A DNA stretch of 64,000 bases from positions 1 to 64,000 of the forward strand of contig CAUJCT010000030.1 in NCBI GenBank assembly GCA_963169345.1, read 5' to 3'. A program made the position numbers and the translations under genes. Shown here piece after piece: positions 673 through 32,970 of this stretch; position 1 is the stretch's first letter; every line of letters starts with the position of its first letter. The notes beneath the pieces were generated by a model. The model had not been told where the DNA came from. It searched no databases and worked only from the letters and a program-made list of their open reading frames with translations. Source of the DNA: Bacteroidota bacterium. GTDB lineage: Bacteria; Bacteroidota; Bacteroidia; NS11-12g; UBA955.

Positions 673-751
673 GGAATTCGTCCCGTAAGATTAGGTATCG
701 GGATACGGGACTTGGAATACGGATAAACATAAGGAGTGTCGGCAAGCTCTA

Positions 752-783
752 CGACTTAACGACTTAACAACTTAACGACTTAA
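752..783 (+). repeat. Octamer array, 4 units of 8 bp
   Basis: Four contiguous 8-bp units, CGACTTAA, CGACTTAA, CAACTTAA and CGACTTAA, directly upstream of the dapD promoter. The same octamer set recurs at 7750-7781, 7935-7958 and 12305-12344. Confidence 0.85.
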
Positions 784-804
784 CTTCCCTTCATCTTTTC
801 CCCT

Positions 805-7695: not shown

Positions 7696-7749
7696 TCTAA
7701 TTCCCCTCAACTCCCCATTCCAAAATCATCAAACCAACCTTAATCCCCA

Positions 7750-7895
7750 CGACTTAACAACTCAACGACTTAACGACTCAACATCCTTCCGCGAATTCCA
7801 GTTTGCGCCAGCAAACCACTGCCGTGTCAAAAGCCACATCTTTTTCTGCGTGTTCAGCGTGTTCGGCCTTAGTTCTGCGTTCCACCTCCCCTCAA
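7750..7895 (+). repeat. Octamer array plus composite element, copy 6
   Basis: Four 8-bp units (CGACTTAA, CAACTCAA, CGACTTAA, CGACTCAA; 7750-7781) lead straight into CATCCTTCCGCG and the hairpin GTTTGC-GCCA-GCAAAC (7801-7816). TGCCGTGTCAAA and the TTCTGCGTG tail ending in CCACCTCCCC follow. Order and orientation match copies 4 and 9. Confidence 0.78.
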
Positions 7896-12304: not shown

Positions 12305-12476
12305 CGACTTAACATCTTAACGACTTAACAACTTAACAACTTAACCTCTTTCCGTGTGTTCCAGTTTGCGCAAGCAAACCCTGCCGTGTCAAAGGCTCCC
12401 GTATAAGACGGGACAGGAATAAATTTTCCGCGTGTTTTGCGCTTTCTTCTCCCAGTTCTGCGTTCCACCTCCCCTA
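12305..12476 (+). repeat. Octamer array plus composite element, copy 9
   Basis: Five in-phase octamers (CGACTTAA, CATCTTAA, CGACTTAA, CAACTTAA, CAACTTAA; 12305-12344), CCTCTTTCCGTG, hairpin GTTTGC-GCAA-GCAAAC (12364-12379), TGCCGTGTCAAAGGC, the optional CCCGT...ACGGG hairpin (12398-12412), and the tail ending CCACCTCCCC. This is the most complete copy and the last one in the window. The gap 12008-12491 holds no gene. Confidence 0.8.
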
Positions 12477-21865: not shown

Positions 21866-22831
21866 ATGTCCATATTCGACTTCTTCAAAAAAGACAAGAA
21901 TACCAACCAGTCCCCTGAAAAATCTGCCGGCCTCGAAAAAACCAAAGAGTCTTTCTTTGGAAAACTTACTAAAGCTCTGGCAGGTAGGTCTACTATCGAT
22001 AATTCTTTCCTTGATGAACTTGAAGAAATTCTAATTACCAGTGATGTAGGCGTCGAAACTACTGTACGCATCATCAATCGCGTCGAAGACAGAGTCAAAC
22101 GCGATAAATACATTAACTCCAACGAACTCCATATCCTGCTAAGAGACGAAATCAGTCTCATGCTGACCGAAAATAAGAAAACTCCAGATGTGGATTTTAA
22201 CCTCAATGGCGCAGCAAAACCTTATGTTCTTATGGTGGTCGGTGTTAATGGTGTTGGCAAAACCACTACCATTGGTAAACTGGCTCATAAATTTAAACAA
22301 AATGGCAAAAAAGTGCTGCTGGCTGCTGGTGATACCTTCAGAGCAGGCGCTGTCGACCAACTCGAAATATGGAGCAAAAGAGTTGGTTGTGATTTTCTCT
22401 CTCATGGCATGCACACCGACCCTTCTGCTGTTGCTTATGATGCTGTAGAAAAAGCAAAAAAAGAAGACTATGATATTGTTATAATTGATACCGCAGGCCG
22501 TTTACACAATAAAATCAATCTCATGAATGAATTGAGTAAAATCAAACGTGTCATGAGTAAAGTGATAGATTCTGCTCCTCACGACGTTATGCTGGTGCTG
22601 GATGCTTCAACCGGTCAAAATGCATTCGAACAAGCCAAACACTTTACTGCTGCTACTGAAGTGAGTTCGCTCGCTTTAACAAAACTGGATGGCACTGCTA
22701 AAGGTGGCGTCGTTCTAGGTATCAGCGACCAGTTTAAAATTCCGGTTCGTTACATTGGCGTTGGTGAAGGCATCGAGGATCTTAGAATTTTCAATGCCTC
22801 CGAATTCGTCAACTCACTTTTTGAAGTGTGA
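21866..22831 (+). CDS. ftsY: Signal recognition particle receptor FtsY
   Basis: A 321-residue SRP GTPase that delivers ribosome-nascent chain complexes to the Sec translocon. It has the N-domain helical bundle (about 1-100) and the G-domain with GVNGVGKTTTIGKLA, DTFRAGAVDQL, DTAGRLHNK, TKLDGTAKGG and the closing GVGEGIEDLRIFN. The long acidic A-domain of enterobacterial FtsY is missing; a short lysine-rich start (FDFFKKDKNT) remains. rimO begins four bases after its stop codon, so ftsY, rimO and bshC probably form one unit. Confidence 0.96.
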   Translation: MSIFDFFKKDKNTNQSPEKSAGLEKTKESFFGKLTKALAGRSTIDNSFLDELEEILITSDVGVETTVRIINRVEDRVKRDKYINSNELHILLRDEISLMLTENKKTPDVDFNLNGAAKPYVLMVVGVNGVGKTTTIGKLAHKFKQNGKKVLLAAGDTFRAGAVDQLEIWSKRVGCDFLSHGMHTDPSAVAYDAVEKAKKEDYDIVIIDTAGRLHNKINLMNELSKIKRVMSKVIDSAPHDVMLVLDASTGQNAFEQAKHFTAATEVSSLALTKLDGTAKGGVVLGISDQFKIPVRYIGVGEGIEDLRIFNASEFVNSLFEV

Positions 22832-22834
22832 TCC

Positions 22835-24145
22835 ATGAAGACAAAATCACTCAAACCAAACAAAATTAACATCGTTACTCTGGGTTGTAGTAAAAACCTT
22901 GTTGATAGCGAAGTCCTGCTCAGTCAGCTAAAAGGCAATGACATGGACGCTACCCACGAATCCGAAAAAGATGATGCCAATATTATCATCGTCAATACCT
23001 GCGGATTTATTGATAATGCAAAACAAGAAAGCATAGACACCATCCTGCAATACGTAGGTGAAAAAGAAGCCGGTAACATTGATAAACTTTATGTTACAGG
23101 TTGCTTGTCTCACAGATATAAAGACGAACTTGAAAATGAAATACCTCAGGTAGATGCTTACTTCGGCACTCTTGAATTGCCAAATCTACTCAAAACACTT
23201 GGCGCTGATTACAAACACGAATTGATTGGCGAACGTTTAACTACAACACCACAACATTACTCCTATCTAAAAATAAGTGAAGGCTGCAATCGCCCATGCT
23301 CGTTTTGCGCCATACCGCTTATGAGAGGTCAACATGTCAGCAAATCCATAGAACAAATTGTAACCGAAGCTGAAAATCTGGTCAAAAATGGCACTAAAGA
23401 AATCATGCTGATTGCTCAGGATAGTACTTATTACGGCCTCGACCTGTATGGTGAACGCAAACTGAAAGACTTACTTGAAAATCTTTCTGAAGTTAAAGGT
23501 TTGGAATGGATACGTCTTCATTATGCATTTCCTTCACAGTTCCCCGAAGATATTTTGCCTGTGATGGCTTCTAAACCGAACATTTGCAAATATCTTGATA
23601 TCCCCGTTCAACATATTTCTGATAATGTTCTGAAACTGATGAGACGCGGCATTACCAGAAGAAGAACCTACGAATTACTCAACAAAATTCGTGAAGAAGT
23701 GCCTGGTATTACACTGCGAACAACCATACTTGTCGGACATCCCGGAGAAACTGAACAGGATTTCGAAGAACTCAAACAATTTGTCAGCGATTTTGAATTC
23801 GACAGATTGGGTGTGTTTACATATTCTCACGAAGAAAACACTCATGCTCATACATTAGTAGATGATGTACCGGCCGAAGTGAAACAGGCCAGGGCAGAAG
23901 AATTAATGGCACTTCAGGAAGAAATTTCAATGAAAAAAAATCAGGAGAAAATAGGTAAGACATTTAAAGTGCTGTTCGACCGTAAAGAAGGCAATTACTT
24001 TGTTGGTCGTACTGAAGCCGATTCCCCTGAAGTTGACAACGAAGTTCTGGTAAATGCCAAAGAGAATTTTGTGAGGTTAGGAGATTTTGCGAATATTGTA
24101 ATCACCGAAGCCGAATCATTCGACTTAATGGGACAACTAGCCTAA
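22835..24145 (+). CDS. rimO: Ribosomal protein S12 methylthiotransferase RimO
   Basis: A 436-residue radical SAM enzyme that adds a methylthio group to an aspartate of ribosomal protein S12. Domains in order are the N-terminal MTTase domain with three cluster cysteines (LGCSKNLVDSE, VNTCGFID, TGCLSHR), the radical SAM core with CNRPCSFC, and a C-terminal TRAM domain (about 375-436). The CSKN motif and length favour RimO over MiaB. It overlaps the next gene by one base (TAATG). Confidence 0.95.
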   Translation: MKTKSLKPNKINIVTLGCSKNLVDSEVLLSQLKGNDMDATHESEKDDANIIIVNTCGFIDNAKQESIDTILQYVGEKEAGNIDKLYVTGCLSHRYKDELENEIPQVDAYFGTLELPNLLKTLGADYKHELIGERLTTTPQHYSYLKISEGCNRPCSFCAIPLMRGQHVSKSIEQIVTEAENLVKNGTKEIMLIAQDSTYYGLDLYGERKLKDLLENLSEVKGLEWIRLHYAFPSQFPEDILPVMASKPNICKYLDIPVQHISDNVLKLMRRGITRRRTYELLNKIREEVPGITLRTTILVGHPGETEQDFEELKQFVSDFEFDRLGVFTYSHEENTHAHTLVDDVPAEVKQARAEELMALQEEISMKKNQEKIGKTFKVLFDRKEGNYFVGRTEADSPEVDNEVLVNAKENFVRLGDFANIVITEAESFDLMGQLA

Positions 24146-27507: not shown

Positions 27508-28167
27508 TTATCGGGTAATATTGGCCCCTTTGAGATAGAAAGGTTCGTATGTAGAAAGATTGACAAACTCTTTCTTGTTATAAGATTCTAGTGCAAGTTC
27601 AGTTAGAAAACCTGCTTCAGGAAATTGATTGTATATAGGGAATCCCAGAATGCCTTCTGTCTTTTTAGCCCCATCACCACAAATTAATACAGTTTGCCCG
27701 CTTATTAGGCCCGGTATAAACTCAGGCTCTGTGACAATGCCATTAGCAACAGTTCCCAACATTTTTAATTCCTTATCAAATAAACAGTGATAAACCTCCA
27801 TTCTTCTGGCATCTATCATGGGCCAGTATATATCTGCAGCTTGCTTTCTTGCGGCGTCCCAGGCTAAGGCTTTAAGCGTACTGACAGCTATTAATGGGAT
27901 GTTTAATGCAAAACAAATTCCTTTAGCTGTGCTGCTTCCTATTCTTAATCCGGTATAAGAACCAGGACCATCACTAATAGCAAGTGCATTCATTTCCGAA
28001 AGTTTAATACCTGCCTCTTGGCAGCACTGGTTGATCATGCCCATTAAAACTTCCGCATGATTTTGAATTTTATCAGACTTTACTTCGGTTATATACCCAT
28101 TGTTATAAATGGCTACCGAGCATATCTGAGAAGAAGTTTCAAGACAAAGTATTCTGATTTCAGGCAT
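27508..28167 (-). CDS. tsaB: tRNA threonylcarbamoyladenosine biosynthesis protein TsaB
   Basis: A 219-residue ASKHA-fold protein that partners TsaD in making t6A37 on ANN-decoding tRNAs. Characteristic parts are ILCLETSSQICSVAI, HAEVLMGMINQ, ISDGPGSYTGLRIGSSTAKG and MIDARRMEVYHCLFD. The start codon lies within the last eight bases of the DUF4175 gene, so the two are translated from one transcript. Confidence 0.93.
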   Translation of the reverse strand: MPEIRILCLETSSQICSVAIYNNGYITEVKSDKIQNHAEVLMGMINQCCQEAGIKLSEMNALAISDGPGSYTGLRIGSSTAKGICFALNIPLIAVSTLKALAWDAARKQAADIYWPMIDARRMEVYHCLFDKELKMLGTVANGIVTEPEFIPGLISGQTVLICGDGAKKTEGILGFPIYNQFPEAGFLTELALESYNKKEFVNLSTYEPFYLKGANITR

Positions 28168-31100
28168 TTCCTAACTTCTGAAAATAAACTCTAACTCTGT
28201 CTTTATAGTATGGAGATAACTCATTGGGAACGCTTCGCAACAATTCCATTTCACGTGCCTTCTTTTCGAGATACTCTTTAATTGCTGGAGGCATTTCTCT
28301 GTTAATCTCCTTGGCTTTTTCAGCTTCTCTTTGATTATCCATTTCCTGTTCACGCTCTGCTTTTTCGTGTTCAAGCATACGTGTTTCAATTTCCTGCATT
28401 CTGCGCATGGTTTCCGGAGTAATTTGTTTATTCACCAAATCCCTCTCTATTTGCTCCATCAGTTGCCTGGTTTTTTCCAAATCACCCAAAGCGCCAGGTT
28501 TACCCTGATCTTTTAATTCCTTCTGCAAACGCTCCAACTCTCTTCTGATAGCTTCCTGTTGTGCGGCTATTTTAGCATACATTTCAGAAGTGGGATTTTT
28601 ACCCATCTCTTTACCCTTTTGCATTTGCTGCAATTGCTTGCTCAATTCATTTTGCATTTGCTGTAAACTCTTCATCCCATTCGGTTTGTTACCACCTTGC
28701 TTTCCGCCTTTCTTTTTACCCGGATTATTACATTGTGAGTTATTCTGACCTTTCTTCTCTTTCAAACTCTCCTGCATATTTTTCAATGACTCACTGAGCA
28801 TCAATGCCAGGTTATTCAGGCTTGTCATCACATATTGCTGATTTGACACCCCGCGGGAAACATGAACTTTACTAAAATCTTCAATTGCTTCATTCATGTA
28901 ATAATTGACGTTAGCAATTTCTTTATTGACGAAACTTTGAATTTGAATTTGTCTTTTACTTAATGCTAACAAAGAATCCTCGACCATTTTTGCACTCTCC
29001 TTTAACTTTTGTTGTTTAGCACTTAACTCTACATATTTAGGACTATAGTAACGATTCTCCTTCATTTTATTCATCAAATCCTCTTGTTGAATACTCAATT
29101 CAATCAGGTTCTCCAGAATCTGACGCAGGGTGTAATAATCTTCTTCATCTTGTTTTTCCTGAGCTTTCTGAAGCGATTGTTTCATTTTACCTGCGAGTTC
29201 ATCCATTTTATCAGCAGCTTTTTGCTGTTTGCTGCCTGCTTTTTTATTGTTCTTACTGGCAATATCCTCAGAACTTTCATCCATATTTTGCTGAATTTCC
29301 TGTTGATCCTGTTCAGTATTTTGCAAATCCAATGGAGTTTCTAGTGCTTTATTTTTTTCTTCAGTCTCCTTTATTTCTTTCTTTAAATCTTCAAATTTCT
29401 TATTCAACTCTTCCTGTTGTTTCATCAAAGACTCTTTTGATTCGGATTTCTCCATTGTCTTTTTAGCGAGTTCTCTCTGTTCCTCAGCAAGTTTATTCAA
29501 AGCATCACTTTGTTCATTGATTTTCTTCTCAATTTCAAATTGCTTAAATTGTTCTAAACTACGGTCCAATTCCTTTTTAATCTCCTCATTACTTAATTTC
29601 ATCTTGTCCAACTGATTCTGAAGTCCCTCTTTGTTCTGCTGCTTGAGCATCTCCTCCATCTTCTTCATCATCTCTTTCATTTCCGGACTTAGCAGTTCAT
29701 TTATTAGTTTATTGAGTTCTTCTTGTTTTTTAAGCAATTCCTGAGCTAAGGGATCTAACTGATTTTGTTTTTCATTCAGTTCTTGATTTTCTTTCTTAAT
29801 CTCTTCAAGTTTTTGTTCAAGTTTCTTTTGCTCTGAAATAAAATCTTTGACTTTCTGTTGTTGTTGCCAGTCCATGTTATCGCTTTCCATCAGATCGCGT
29901 TTAAGGTCGCTGCCTTTCTTTTGCATAGACTCAATGTCCTTCATTACTTCAGCCATTTTGCTTTTCAAAGCTCTGTTTCCGCTTTCCGACTCAGCTCTTA
30001 ATTCTTTTTCACTTGGTGCTGCACTTCTAAACACCTGGCTTTTACTTGACTTTTTACCATTGACAGCATCGTTATCCCAAACCTCAAAGTAATACTCCAG
30101 CTGATCCCCGTCTTTATTACCCAAAGTGCGTAAATCCACCATATAATAAAAGATTTCGTCTGTGCTTCTACCCATAGTAACGGGCAAATATTTCAGAGCT
30201 TGTCCTGCACTTACACTTCTATAAACAAAATTGAGTTTACTTAATCCATAATCGTCATCTGCTTTACCATAAAAATAAATAATGAAAGGGTTAATTGAAT
30301 CCTTCTTTTGTTCAGCAGCAATTCCAGGGTATCGGTCAGGAATCGTTTGAATAAAATAACGAATGGTATCTTTATTTCTGATATGCCTGTTTTGAAGCGT
30401 AATCTGATAATTGATATTATCATTGACTTTAGCCTTAACTGTAAAAACATTTTCCGCTTTTTCGACAAGAGCACCAACTTTATCAAATGCGAATCCTAAA
30501 GATTCAACATCTTTAGTTGTAAAATGCCATTCAACAGAAGTGCCTTCAGGAATGGTAAAGTCCCCAATATTGCTGAGAGTTTCGTCTTTTCTGTTAGTAT
30601 ATGCCGGATAATTCAGGCTGACTTTAAAATTGAGAAGAGTAGGATTAGGTAGAACTTCAAGTACATACTGTTCAGAGTTGTACTCTCCATCTGTAAAATG
30701 GAAAATGTGGTTACTGGTTAAATTGTTTAATGTGTAAGAAAATTTGTTCTTACCAGTGCTTTCCAATTTAATTAAATGCTTGTCCAGTTCGACAAACAGA
30801 GTAGCCGGTAAAGATTTACCTTTCAACTCCACTTCGATTGTATAATCTGTGTTTTTAGGCACTTTGAGCCCCTTATTCACCAAATGAAAAGTGTATGGAG
30901 CTTCTTTAGCAAAGTGTTGATCGTACTGAAGAATTCTCTCAGCCGGTTTTGTAATCATACTGCTCTGAAAGACTAAAATACCGAAGAGAATCAACATAGG
31001 GAACAAAGTATATTTACCATACTTTTTCGCCGACTCCTTTAAATCAACTGCATTTGCAAATCTGAAAGGAGACATGGTATTGATTCTTTGCTGAACACTG

Positions 31101-31480
31101 GCAAGTAAAAGTTCGTTACTTGAATTATGAGATTGCGATTCGAGTTGAAGCGTATTGAGGAGTTTGTCTTTTATTTCAGGAAAGTGGGTACCAATAATTG
31201 TAGAAGCCTTTTCATAGGAGATAATTTTTCCAATTCCCATGCGGTTCATCAGAGGAATGATCATGTATCTTCCAATAATGACAACTGAAAACAGAATGAA
31301 AGAGAAAAAAAGGAAAGACCGCATCCCCGAGCCAAAATGTCCGAAGTACTCCATCAGGCTGGCTATTAGGAAAAAAGCGAGAACACCACCAGAGCCGAGA
31401 AGGAGTCCTTGAAGGAAGCGATTGAAATAGTACTTCCTGATGAACTCGTCAAGTTTGGATCTTAATAGAGAATTGTTCAT
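28160..31480 (-). CDS. DUF4175 family giant coiled-coil membrane protein
   Basis: A 1106-residue protein of the DUF4175 type, of unknown function. It has two N-terminal transmembrane helices (about 23-46 and 54-76), a third hydrophobic segment near 155-172, and a beta-rich extracytoplasmic region (about 200-480). Two very long Gln/Glu/Lys-rich coiled coils follow (about 490-800 and 930-1080), separated by helices and a KGGKQGGNKP-type linker. Members occur widely in Bacteroidota. The arrangement (membrane anchor, Ig-like part, coiled-coil rods) suggests a scaffold, which is inference. tsaB overlaps its 3' end. Confidence 0.8.
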   Translation of the reverse strand: MNNSLLRSKLDEFIRKYYFNRFLQGLLLGSGGVLAFFLIASLMEYFGHFGSGMRSFLFFSFILFSVVIIGRYMIIPLMNRMGIGKIISYEKASTIIGTHFPEIKDKLLNTLQLESQSHNSSNELLLASVQQRINTMSPFRFANAVDLKESAKKYGKYTLFPMLILFGILVFQSSMITKPAERILQYDQHFAKEAPYTFHLVNKGLKVPKNTDYTIEVELKGKSLPATLFVELDKHLIKLESTGKNKFSYTLNNLTSNHIFHFTDGEYNSEQYVLEVLPNPTLLNFKVSLNYPAYTNRKDETLSNIGDFTIPEGTSVEWHFTTKDVESLGFAFDKVGALVEKAENVFTVKAKVNDNINYQITLQNRHIRNKDTIRYFIQTIPDRYPGIAAEQKKDSINPFIIYFYGKADDDYGLSKLNFVYRSVSAGQALKYLPVTMGRSTDEIFYYMVDLRTLGNKDGDQLEYYFEVWDNDAVNGKKSSKSQVFRSAAPSEKELRAESESGNRALKSKMAEVMKDIESMQKKGSDLKRDLMESDNMDWQQQQKVKDFISEQKKLEQKLEEIKKENQELNEKQNQLDPLAQELLKKQEELNKLINELLSPEMKEMMKKMEEMLKQQNKEGLQNQLDKMKLSNEEIKKELDRSLEQFKQFEIEKKINEQSDALNKLAEEQRELAKKTMEKSESKESLMKQQEELNKKFEDLKKEIKETEEKNKALETPLDLQNTEQDQQEIQQNMDESSEDIASKNNKKAGSKQQKAADKMDELAGKMKQSLQKAQEKQDEEDYYTLRQILENLIELSIQQEDLMNKMKENRYYSPKYVELSAKQQKLKESAKMVEDSLLALSKRQIQIQSFVNKEIANVNYYMNEAIEDFSKVHVSRGVSNQQYVMTSLNNLALMLSESLKNMQESLKEKKGQNNSQCNNPGKKKGGKQGGNKPNGMKSLQQMQNELSKQLQQMQKGKEMGKNPTSEMYAKIAAQQEAIRRELERLQKELKDQGKPGALGDLEKTRQLMEQIERDLVNKQITPETMRRMQEIETRMLEHEKAEREQEMDNQREAEKAKEINREMPPAIKEYLEKKAREMELLRSVPNELSPYYKDRVRVYFQKLGNA

Positions 31481-31503
31481 ATCGTCAGGTTTCCTTGTTT
31501 AGA

Positions 31504-31511
31504 CAAATATA
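31504..31511 (-). promoter_or_regulatory. -7 box, DUF4175-tsaB operon
   Basis: TATATTTG on the minus strand, 23 bases before the ATG at 31480. Confidence 0.65.
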
Positions 31512-31599
31512 ACGCAATCTTTTGATGTTTGTTATTGGTTTCGCAATTTTTTGACAAAACTGTGTTTAGCTCGGTGAAATATGGAAATTGGAATCAGAA

Positions 31600-31765
31600 T
31601 GGATTTTTTTTAACGTAATACACCCTGCTAGGGTATTAAAAATTAAAACAATTCAAATTTTCGAAATACCATTCGAAAAAAATACCTGTTCACTTATAAA
31701 AAATAATCCGGTTTTCCGTGAAGTCCCATTGGATTTTTGGTTTCTTTTTTATAAAAGATATTTGA
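31600..31765 (-). repeat. Diverged inverted copy of the 172-bp repeat
   Basis: Holds ACCCTGCTAGGGT (31622-31634), the reverse complement of the palindromic core of the units at 31931-32327, and GAAGTCCCATTGG (31720-31732), which matches GGAGTCCTATTGG of the unit read in reverse. The spacing core-to-motif is 86 bases here and 85 in the intact unit, so this is a collinear but decayed inverted copy. Confidence 0.65.
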
Positions 31766-31865
31766 TCGAATTAGTGATTTGAACGACTCAAATTGAAAAT
31801 GTGGAAATGATAAAAGTATATTTAAAAGTTGTACTATTTCTTTATTAAAAATACAAGTACATATT

Positions 31866-31930
31866 ACTGAAACGTGTTATTTTTCTTATGAGGAAGCAGA
31901 AAATTTTGTGTGAGGTAATCACAATAACCG
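31866..31930 (+). repeat. Diverged direct partial copy of the 172-bp repeat
   Basis: ACTGAAAC at 31866-31873 followed by AGCAGAAAATTTT and ending 58 bases later at the next core arm. The intact unit has ACTGAAAC, AGCAGAAAACTTTT and the same 58-base distance. It appears to be an older unit of the tandem array. Confidence 0.55.
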
Positions 31931-32327
31931 AATTATTTTAATTCCAGATACCCTAGCAGGGTATTTCAAATTAAAATAATTCCAACACTCCCTTTATTCC
32001 ATATCCGGATTTTAAACGAAATTACCAATAGAACTCCACTGAAACCAATCAATTTTCTATTGTATAAGCAGAAAACTTTTTGAATTGAAATTGAAGATTG
32101 GGAATTATTTTAATTCCAGATACCCTAGCAGGGTGATTCGTATTAAAATAATTCCAACACTCCCTTAATTCCATATCCGGTTTTTAAACGAAATTACCAA
32201 TAGGACTCCACTGAAACCAATCAATTTTCTATTGTATAAGCAGAAAACTTTTTGAATTGAAATTGAAAATTGGGAATTATTTTAATTCCCGATACCCTAG
32301 CAGGGTGATTCGTATTAAAATAATTCC
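31931..32327 (+). repeat. 172-bp tandem repeat with nested palindromes (2.3 units)
   Basis: Two full units (31931-32102 and 32103-32274) and the start of a third (32275-32327), period exactly 172. Each begins with a nested palindrome. The outer arms are GGAATTATTTTAAT and ATTAAAATAATTCC (14 bp in units 2 and 3, slightly shorter in unit 1) and the inner arms are ACCCT-AGC-AGGGT (31950-31962, 32122-32134, 32294-32306). The linker, about 120 bp, is AT-rich and nearly identical between units. The gap 31481-32415 has no credible gene. Confidence 0.9.
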
Positions 32328-32368
32328 GGTGTTTCAGATTAAAAATACCACCTCCCCTCACCTTCCTC

Positions 32369-32399
32369 TTGACTTTGGCCCTATTTTTGGTTAACTTTG
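32369..32399 (+). promoter_or_regulatory. Promoter of the thioredoxin-like gene
   Basis: TTG at 32369-32371, 20 bases, TAACTTTG at 32392-32399, 16 bases before the ATG at 32416. It starts 42 bases after the palindromic repeat ends. Confidence 0.7.
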
Positions 32400-32415
32400 T
32401 ATAAATATTTTTATT

Positions 32416-32970
32416 ATGCTTCGTAAAATTTTGTTCCTGTCCCTAATTAGCACATTAGCCATTGGAATTAGTTCCTATACTTATATCAACTCGCAACCTA
32501 AACCAGCTAAAAAATCGGCTAAAAAATCCAGCAAAAGCAAAAAGGCTGCATCAGGTGAAACTTCCACTGAAAGTGCAAACAAAATCACCTGGTACAACAT
32601 GACCGAAGGCTACGCAAAAGCTAAAAAAGAAAAAAAAGTACTTATTGTTGACGTCTATACAGACTGGTGCTACTGGTGTAAAGTAATGGATCGCCAAACT
32701 TATGAAAATAAGACTATAGTTAATAAGATGAAAGAATACGCAGTTGCCGTGAAATTCAATCCTGAAGTCAATGGTAACCATACCGTGAATGGTCAAACGC
32801 TCAGCTCTGATCAACTTGGTATCTACCTTAACAAAGGTTCAAGAATCCCCGGATATCCAAATACTTTTATGTGGAAAGACCTTACCAATAGCAGTAAAAT
32901 TGAATCTTACTCCGGTTACCTGGATACAACCGTATTCAATATCTACCTCAACAAGATGATCCAACAATAG
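32416..32970 (+). CDS. Exported thioredoxin-like protein (CYWC)
   Basis: A 184-residue protein with an N-terminal signal peptide or anchor (ILFLSLISTLAIGISSYTY). A lysine/serine-rich linker (about 27-55, AKKSAKKSSKSKKAA) leads to a thioredoxin fold of the Thioredoxin_7/DsbD-gamma-like kind with the redox motif WCYWC (about 88-92) and a cis-proline region PGYPNTF (about 152-158). Likely a periplasmic or membrane-tethered thiol reductase or oxidase; substrates are unknown. rlmD starts 12 bases downstream on the same strand. Confidence 0.82.
   Translation: MLRKILFLSLISTLAIGISSYTYINSQPKPAKKSAKKSSKSKKAASGETSTESANKITWYNMTEGYAKAKKEKKVLIVDVYTDWCYWCKVMDRQTYENKTIVNKMKEYAVAVKFNPEVNGNHTVNGQTLSSDQLGIYLNKGSRIPGYPNTFMWKDLTNSSKIESYSGYLDTTVFNIYLNKMIQQ

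Follow-up and report, generated by a model that had tools for sequence, protein, structure and literature searches.

Why does a gap between two divergently transcribed genes hold a block of repeated palindromes, and how did it come to be there? The block lies in a 64-kb stretch of DNA from a Bacteroidota genome, which we call the window when its whole length is meant, and the initial annotation considered it a possible partition or replication site, a structured RNA or a dead MITE. Here we suggest, with a probability of roughly 0.78, that it is a locus of non-autonomous REP-like repeats mobilised by a RAYT and amplified locally in tandem, the mobilisation being what we infer by analogy with known RAYT systems. 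REP/RAYT systems are best studied in gamma-proteobacteria, and the Bacteroidota branch of RAYTs has been described mainly by its atypical secondary structures. The present genome offers two RAYTs with repeat families of their own, a repeat unit of clear polarity, older and younger arrays and a comparison with an empty site. In a group that has been little studied, it opens the spread and amplification of such repeats to direct testing.

Structure of the repeat locus

Tandem Repeats Finder returned a period of 172 over 31930-32327 (2.3 copies, 96% matches, score 733), in agreement with the initial description of two full units and a partial third. The full units, 31930-32101 and 32102-32273, are 95% identical to each other, and a third palindrome comes after them at 32274-32327. 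The nested palindrome is present as described, with cores at 31622, 31950, 32122 and 32294, and the general form of this core, ACYYT-N3-ARRGT, has no site in the 64-kb window beyond these four. Both of the decayed copies that had been noticed upstream are real: the older direct partial copy at 31866 is 73% identical at a spacing of exactly 172 (unit profile E 1.8e-23), and the inverted, diverged copy is found by the same profile at E 8e-25.

Each unit consists of a spacer (S) and a 55-bp imperfect palindrome (P), and the order of parts in the locus is P'-S' ... S0-P-S1-P-S2-P. The inverted unit, on the minus strand, comprises a diverged palindrome P' (31602..31654, P profile 47 bits) and its spacer S' (31661..31764, S profile 36 bits). 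The direct array, on the plus strand, opens with the diverged and 5'-truncated spacer S0 (31836..31918, 26 bits) and continues through P1 (31930..31983, 52 bits), S1 (31990..32100, 73 bits), P2 (32101..32155, 55 bits) and S2 (32162..32272, 75 bits) to the terminal palindrome P3 (32273..32327, 56 bits). The proposal that old and young units stand side by side here is borne out, as the inverted unit and S0 are diverged and the inner units are near-identical; with this locus left out of the S profile, S0 scores 26.5 against 66.7 for S1 and 69.6 for S2. Just 3' of P3, on the same strand, a weak match to P profile positions 32-49 (32328..32349, 6.1 bits, E 0.048) is a candidate residual right half-palindrome.

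The locus as insertion between two promoter regions

The flanking genes, which lie outside the element, are divergent as had been stated: a gene for 1106 aa at 28160..31480 on the minus strand, and a gene for a 184-aa protein, thioredoxin-like by sequence, at 32416..32970 on the plus strand. Each has an upstream block that is kept in sister species, namely a probable promoter of the left gene (31501..31556, minus strand, aligned to positions 30-85 of the G015 gap) and a promoter-like TTTG-N-TAACTTTG of the right gene (32374..32405, plus strand, 30/32 identical to G015). These blocks are 817 bp apart in the window and 19 bp apart in G015, and across nine genomes of the same genus the orthologous divergent gap measures only 137-230 bp. 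The alignment thus places about 800 bp of inserted DNA between two intact promoter regions in the window genome, relative to its sister species, whose gaps are too diverged from the window for target-site duplications to be read. Judged by the right-hand gene, G003 is the nearest relative, and its gap holds an unrelated insertion (L117:580-1400) in which an ORF of about 270 aa lies. As this insertion is a different one, insertions have entered the gap more than once.

The repeats themselves are restricted in their distribution. A search for the core and the array in relatives, as the initial annotation had proposed, gave no match in 38 related genomes, and the exact palindrome pattern is absent from 84,980 species (GTDB r220) and from IMG/VR, collections from which the window's own genome records may have been omitted.

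A dispersed family of polar repeat units

In its own genome (a draft of 3.63 Mb in 59 contigs, 99.9% complete with 2.1% contamination) the block is one locus among many. A similarity search listed 100 matching places, and the nested-palindrome pattern with up to three mismatches gave 73 forward and 72 reverse matches, the same site being mostly matched on both strands, against 0 in the backwards control. Profile searches on stretches taken from the genome resolved 79 copies of P in 41 runs of 1 to 4 P each, numbers of copies and units that are lower bounds, as about twelve contig ends fall in or near repeats. Essentially all runs are intergenic. This scatter, together with the absence from sister species, argues against a role in partition or replication. 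The block was to be judged a plain MITE or REP if single copies turned up by the hundreds at scattered sites; the copies of P are indeed dispersed, yet about half of the runs are ordered direct S-P arrays.

The unit is polar, with S (about 110 bp) preceding P, and between loci it is homologous over its whole length, with conserved blocks in S that include CTTTATTGAAAC and CTTTTTGAATGGAAA. Within arrays the period of P is mostly 164-172 bp. Runs follow a regular order, (S)P...SP, in which P stands last in complete runs; there are two exceptions, a run truncated by a contig end and a run with a weak, probably spurious fragment of S. The 5' tetranucleotide of P is GGAG in 26/74 copies and otherwise varied, with GTAG or GTGG in 3/74.

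As in the window, the first spacer of a run tends to be the more diverged one. With the full S profile this held in 14/14 runs, but that profile was made from inner units; with each locus left out it held in 11/15, strongly in six of them, the window included, so a claim that the first S is always more diverged had to be dropped in favour of a suggestive trend. Part of the divergence is 5' truncation. The trend suggests that inner units are not simply copied from the first unit. In 17/41 last palindromes, against 5/38 internal ones (p 0.006), the right arm has an extended A-run, complementary to the left arm, and these arms, with the possible half-palindrome after P3, would fit, if weakly, with units joined inside or next to P.

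A RAYT gene bracketed by the palindrome

Four proteins of the genome show similarity to Y1 transposases. One of them, an HUH-tyrosine (HUH-Y1) transposase of 210 aa encoded on the minus strand of contig C48 (C48:22545-23177), is bracketed by inverted P, with a three-palindrome array at 22010-22392 (minus) on one side and a single palindrome at 23288-23337 (plus) on the other. By a rough estimate, the chance of finding P on both sides of such a gene is about 1e-4 over the four genes. The protein has the HUH motif NHIH and the tyrosine motif YIHYNP, and exceeds the Pfam Y1_Tnp cut-off. Its closest structure is PDB 4er8, the E. coli TnpA_REP bound to a REP hairpin, both by profile (E 1.4e-6) and by predicted fold (mean pLDDT 88; best hit at E 7.5e-8). 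Against the NCBIfam equivalog model REP_Tyr_transpos (NF047646) it scores E 1.6e-17 and 63.7 bits, under the curated cut-off of 80, a point that counts against the RAYT reading; all 12 of its 12 aligned relatives match the same model at E 0.001 or better. Two further Y1-like proteins of the genome may be alternative partners for P.

A second RAYT (C34:26229-26840) is flanked by a palindrome of its own, ATTCAACCT-N3-AGGTTGAAT, with about 68 sites (L064, L091 and L096-L115 included), and this family is likewise built of S-P units, which recur in direct orientation about every 70-95 bp. There is thus one repeat family per RAYT, the first on both sides of the C48 gene and the second with the C34 gene. 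The S modules of the two families have ACTTTATTGAAAC in common (shuffle p 0.009 and 0.019), a 13-mer that occurs 13 times in the window genome and 0-2 times per relative.

We also surveyed the flanks of 80 RAYT loci, mostly from Bacteroidota, with windows 2 kb away as controls. Strong hairpins occurred in 73/150 RAYT-adjacent flanks against 5/135 control windows. The core taken from the array, ACCCT-N3-AGGGT, was found in 12/156 near and 0/135 far windows, and ACYYT-N3-ARRGT, a form chosen post hoc from these hairpins, in 29/156 near and 0/135 far windows. Because these core forms occur near RAYTs and in none of the far windows, the core of P is, judged by its sequence, of the kind that accompanies this enzyme family in Bacteroidota. 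The relatives of the RAYT and the form of the promoter point to Bacteroidota as the group to which the window genome belongs.

Inverted pairs, gene context and folding of the palindrome

Inverted pairs of units occur at three loci, namely in the window, at C20:39155/39483 with the same 328-bp spacing as in the window, and at C48:56970/57140, as well as around the RAYT gene. Such pairs are what would be expected of a classical MITE, that is, an inverted-repeat element moved by a DDE or other transposase, with the tandems produced by replication slippage and the RAYT not its mover; in addition, 19/41 runs do not belong to arrays with an inverted partner as well, as would be the case for debris. 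Most runs are direct only, however, and the lack of an inverted partner leaves them without terminal inverted repeats; we encountered no DDE element bearing such ends, and the core of P is typical of RAYT-flanking hairpins. We consider a classical MITE improbable, and of the dead MITE first proposed retain the mobile element, for which the data point to a RAYT-associated, REP-like one.

The position of the repeats relative to genes could also suggest a function for the host. Most runs lie in divergent gaps, P often ends 40-160 bp from a start codon, and conservation within S and P is patterned, so that P might be a palindromic operator, and a transcription regulator or nucleoid protein might bind the promoter-near arrays at multiple sites, the link to the RAYT being incidental. 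Runs are found in co-directional gaps as well, though, and 6 lie in convergent ones; divergent gaps are larger gaps anyway, sister species keep the flanking genes and promoters without the family, and P brackets the RAYT gene. An apparent bias of orientation toward downstream promoters was set aside, as it was mostly due to divergent gaps, in which orientation cannot show, and in co-directional gaps the counts were 6 versus 2. A host role as a regulator array is possible and not supported, and as the origin of the family we regard it as quite improbable.

Transcription of S-P into a small RNA or attenuator, with the arrays as multi-copy RNA genes, would accord with the strong conservation of the S blocks and with the hairpin that P can form, but is hardly credible given that an Rfam scan gave no match, RNAalifold on units and spacers of both strands found no consensus fold of S, covariation at paired P positions did not exceed that of shuffles, and P folds about equally well on both strands. 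As DNA, the P hairpin likewise has no strand asymmetry (29/72, p 0.42).

A model for spread and array growth

Mobilisation by the RAYT, the reading we favour, can be laid out as a sequence of events. An older inverted pair, P'-S' ... S0-P, would first have sat between the two divergent promoters, and its right end would later have gained S-P units, joined head to tail. The C48-encoded RAYT would recognise the P hairpin in single-stranded DNA and, by cutting and rejoining beside P, disperse P and S-P units into intergenic DNA. Cleavage of a single strand at P is proposed here by analogy to the E. coli TnpA_REP (PMC8266576). Arrays might then lengthen as more units insert at P, or through unequal crossing-over or slippage among copies of P, a route that would keep inner units alike as edge units decay. 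Two features of the repeats run counter to this model in addition to the score of the enzyme: P has no GT[AG]G foot and exceeds usual REPs in length, and the runs have no replication-strand bias by GC skew (15/36), a check that had been put forward at the outset.

A more specific version, which we think unlikely as it stands, is that the RAYT places S-P cassettes specifically at existing P hairpins. S would then be a functional half of the mobile cassette, units would be acquired by targeting and not by copying of a resident unit, and both RAYT systems would share the S module.

Relation to known systems

The survey of RAYT flanks fits what is reported of TnpA_REP subclass 2.6 (RAYT group 5), a Bacteroidetes group with atypical flanking secondary structures, copies of which are found elsewhere in the genome (Quentin et al. 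2018, PMC6006769). As described there, its REPtrons resemble the present system in a Bacteroidota RAYT that carries the motifs NH[x]H and YIHxNP, in the pairing of each repeat family with a single RAYT gene, and in structures without a GT[AG]G foot, as in P. The likeness is one of motifs, with YIHYNP here and YIH[QN]NP there, and the S-P unit and direct arrays of the window family are not among the features of that description.

With the REPs and BIMEs of E. coli and its relatives (PMC8266576) the family shares dispersed intergenic palindromes in many copies, an imperfect stem with internal irregularity, frequent tandem copies and a cognate RAYT in single copy. It differs in the missing GTAG foot and in the direct S-P order with a long conserved spacer, in place of alternating REP and iREP; with its 55 bp, P sits around the upper limit of the size range reported for REPs, 20-50 nt. 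In Pseudomonas fluorescens SBW25 (PMC3116915), REPINs form inverted pairs, and tandem REPIN clusters consist of near-identical units including flanking sequence and lie beside cognate RAYTs, as here; in our family inverted doublets are a minority, and the units repeat in direct orientation at a period of about 170 bp. The array habit is not new in kind, since tandem REP units and RAYT-side clusters are known from Pseudomonas (PMC3116915). The family is set apart by the length and conservation of S, by the direct polarity of S-P, by a sequence specific to the species and by the absence of a GTAG foot. IS200/IS605 elements have the same HUH-Y1 enzyme fold and a hairpin as likely recognition element; unlike in these, no IS with paired left and right ends was found here, and the repeats far outnumber the transposase gene.

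Insertions and exchanges at the repeats

The repeats explain many contig breaks of the assembly, and an IS110-like element (N-terminus VGIDCSKNELVCC, C-terminus LIYTLWKSNEKYDPES) targets them. Ends of this element, for which Pfam support is weak as the assembly holds fragments only, are found at six contig ends, always in the P/S linker (L030, L034, L041, L049, L054 and L062, on contigs C2, C15, C32, C43, C50 and C57). An apparently empty linker, AAACCCCTAAATCCGATTTCCTGTTTCC, is seen in the unit at C31:14883. IS110-type elements are known to insert specifically into REPs (PMC1525189).

In four units (C20:7572, C31:15080, C42:10323 and C48:56970; L035, L039, L048 and L052) the hairpin tip ACCCTAGCAGGGT is swapped for another hairpin, e.g., ACCCTAGTCCGCCTCAGGCGGAT. 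The idea that TCCGCCTSAGGCGGA is a second REP invading palindrome tips was rejected, as it is rare in the genome and in relatives lies inside unrelated hairpins. The hairpin TCCGCC-N2-AGGCGGA is rare in the genome, with about ten sites.

Two other kinds of repeat were noted. One, GGAACT-TCCGCC-N3-GGCGGA-GGATG-CGCTGAAAGATTCGCAGATGAT, is dispersed over C1:44114, C1:44440, C6:6157, C19:191200 and C27:146953 (L071-L074) and bears no relation to the S-P units. The other is an 8-bp unit, ACGACTTA / ACTTAACA, which forms short tandem repeats at three places in the window (751-784, 7749-7782 and 12305-12350).
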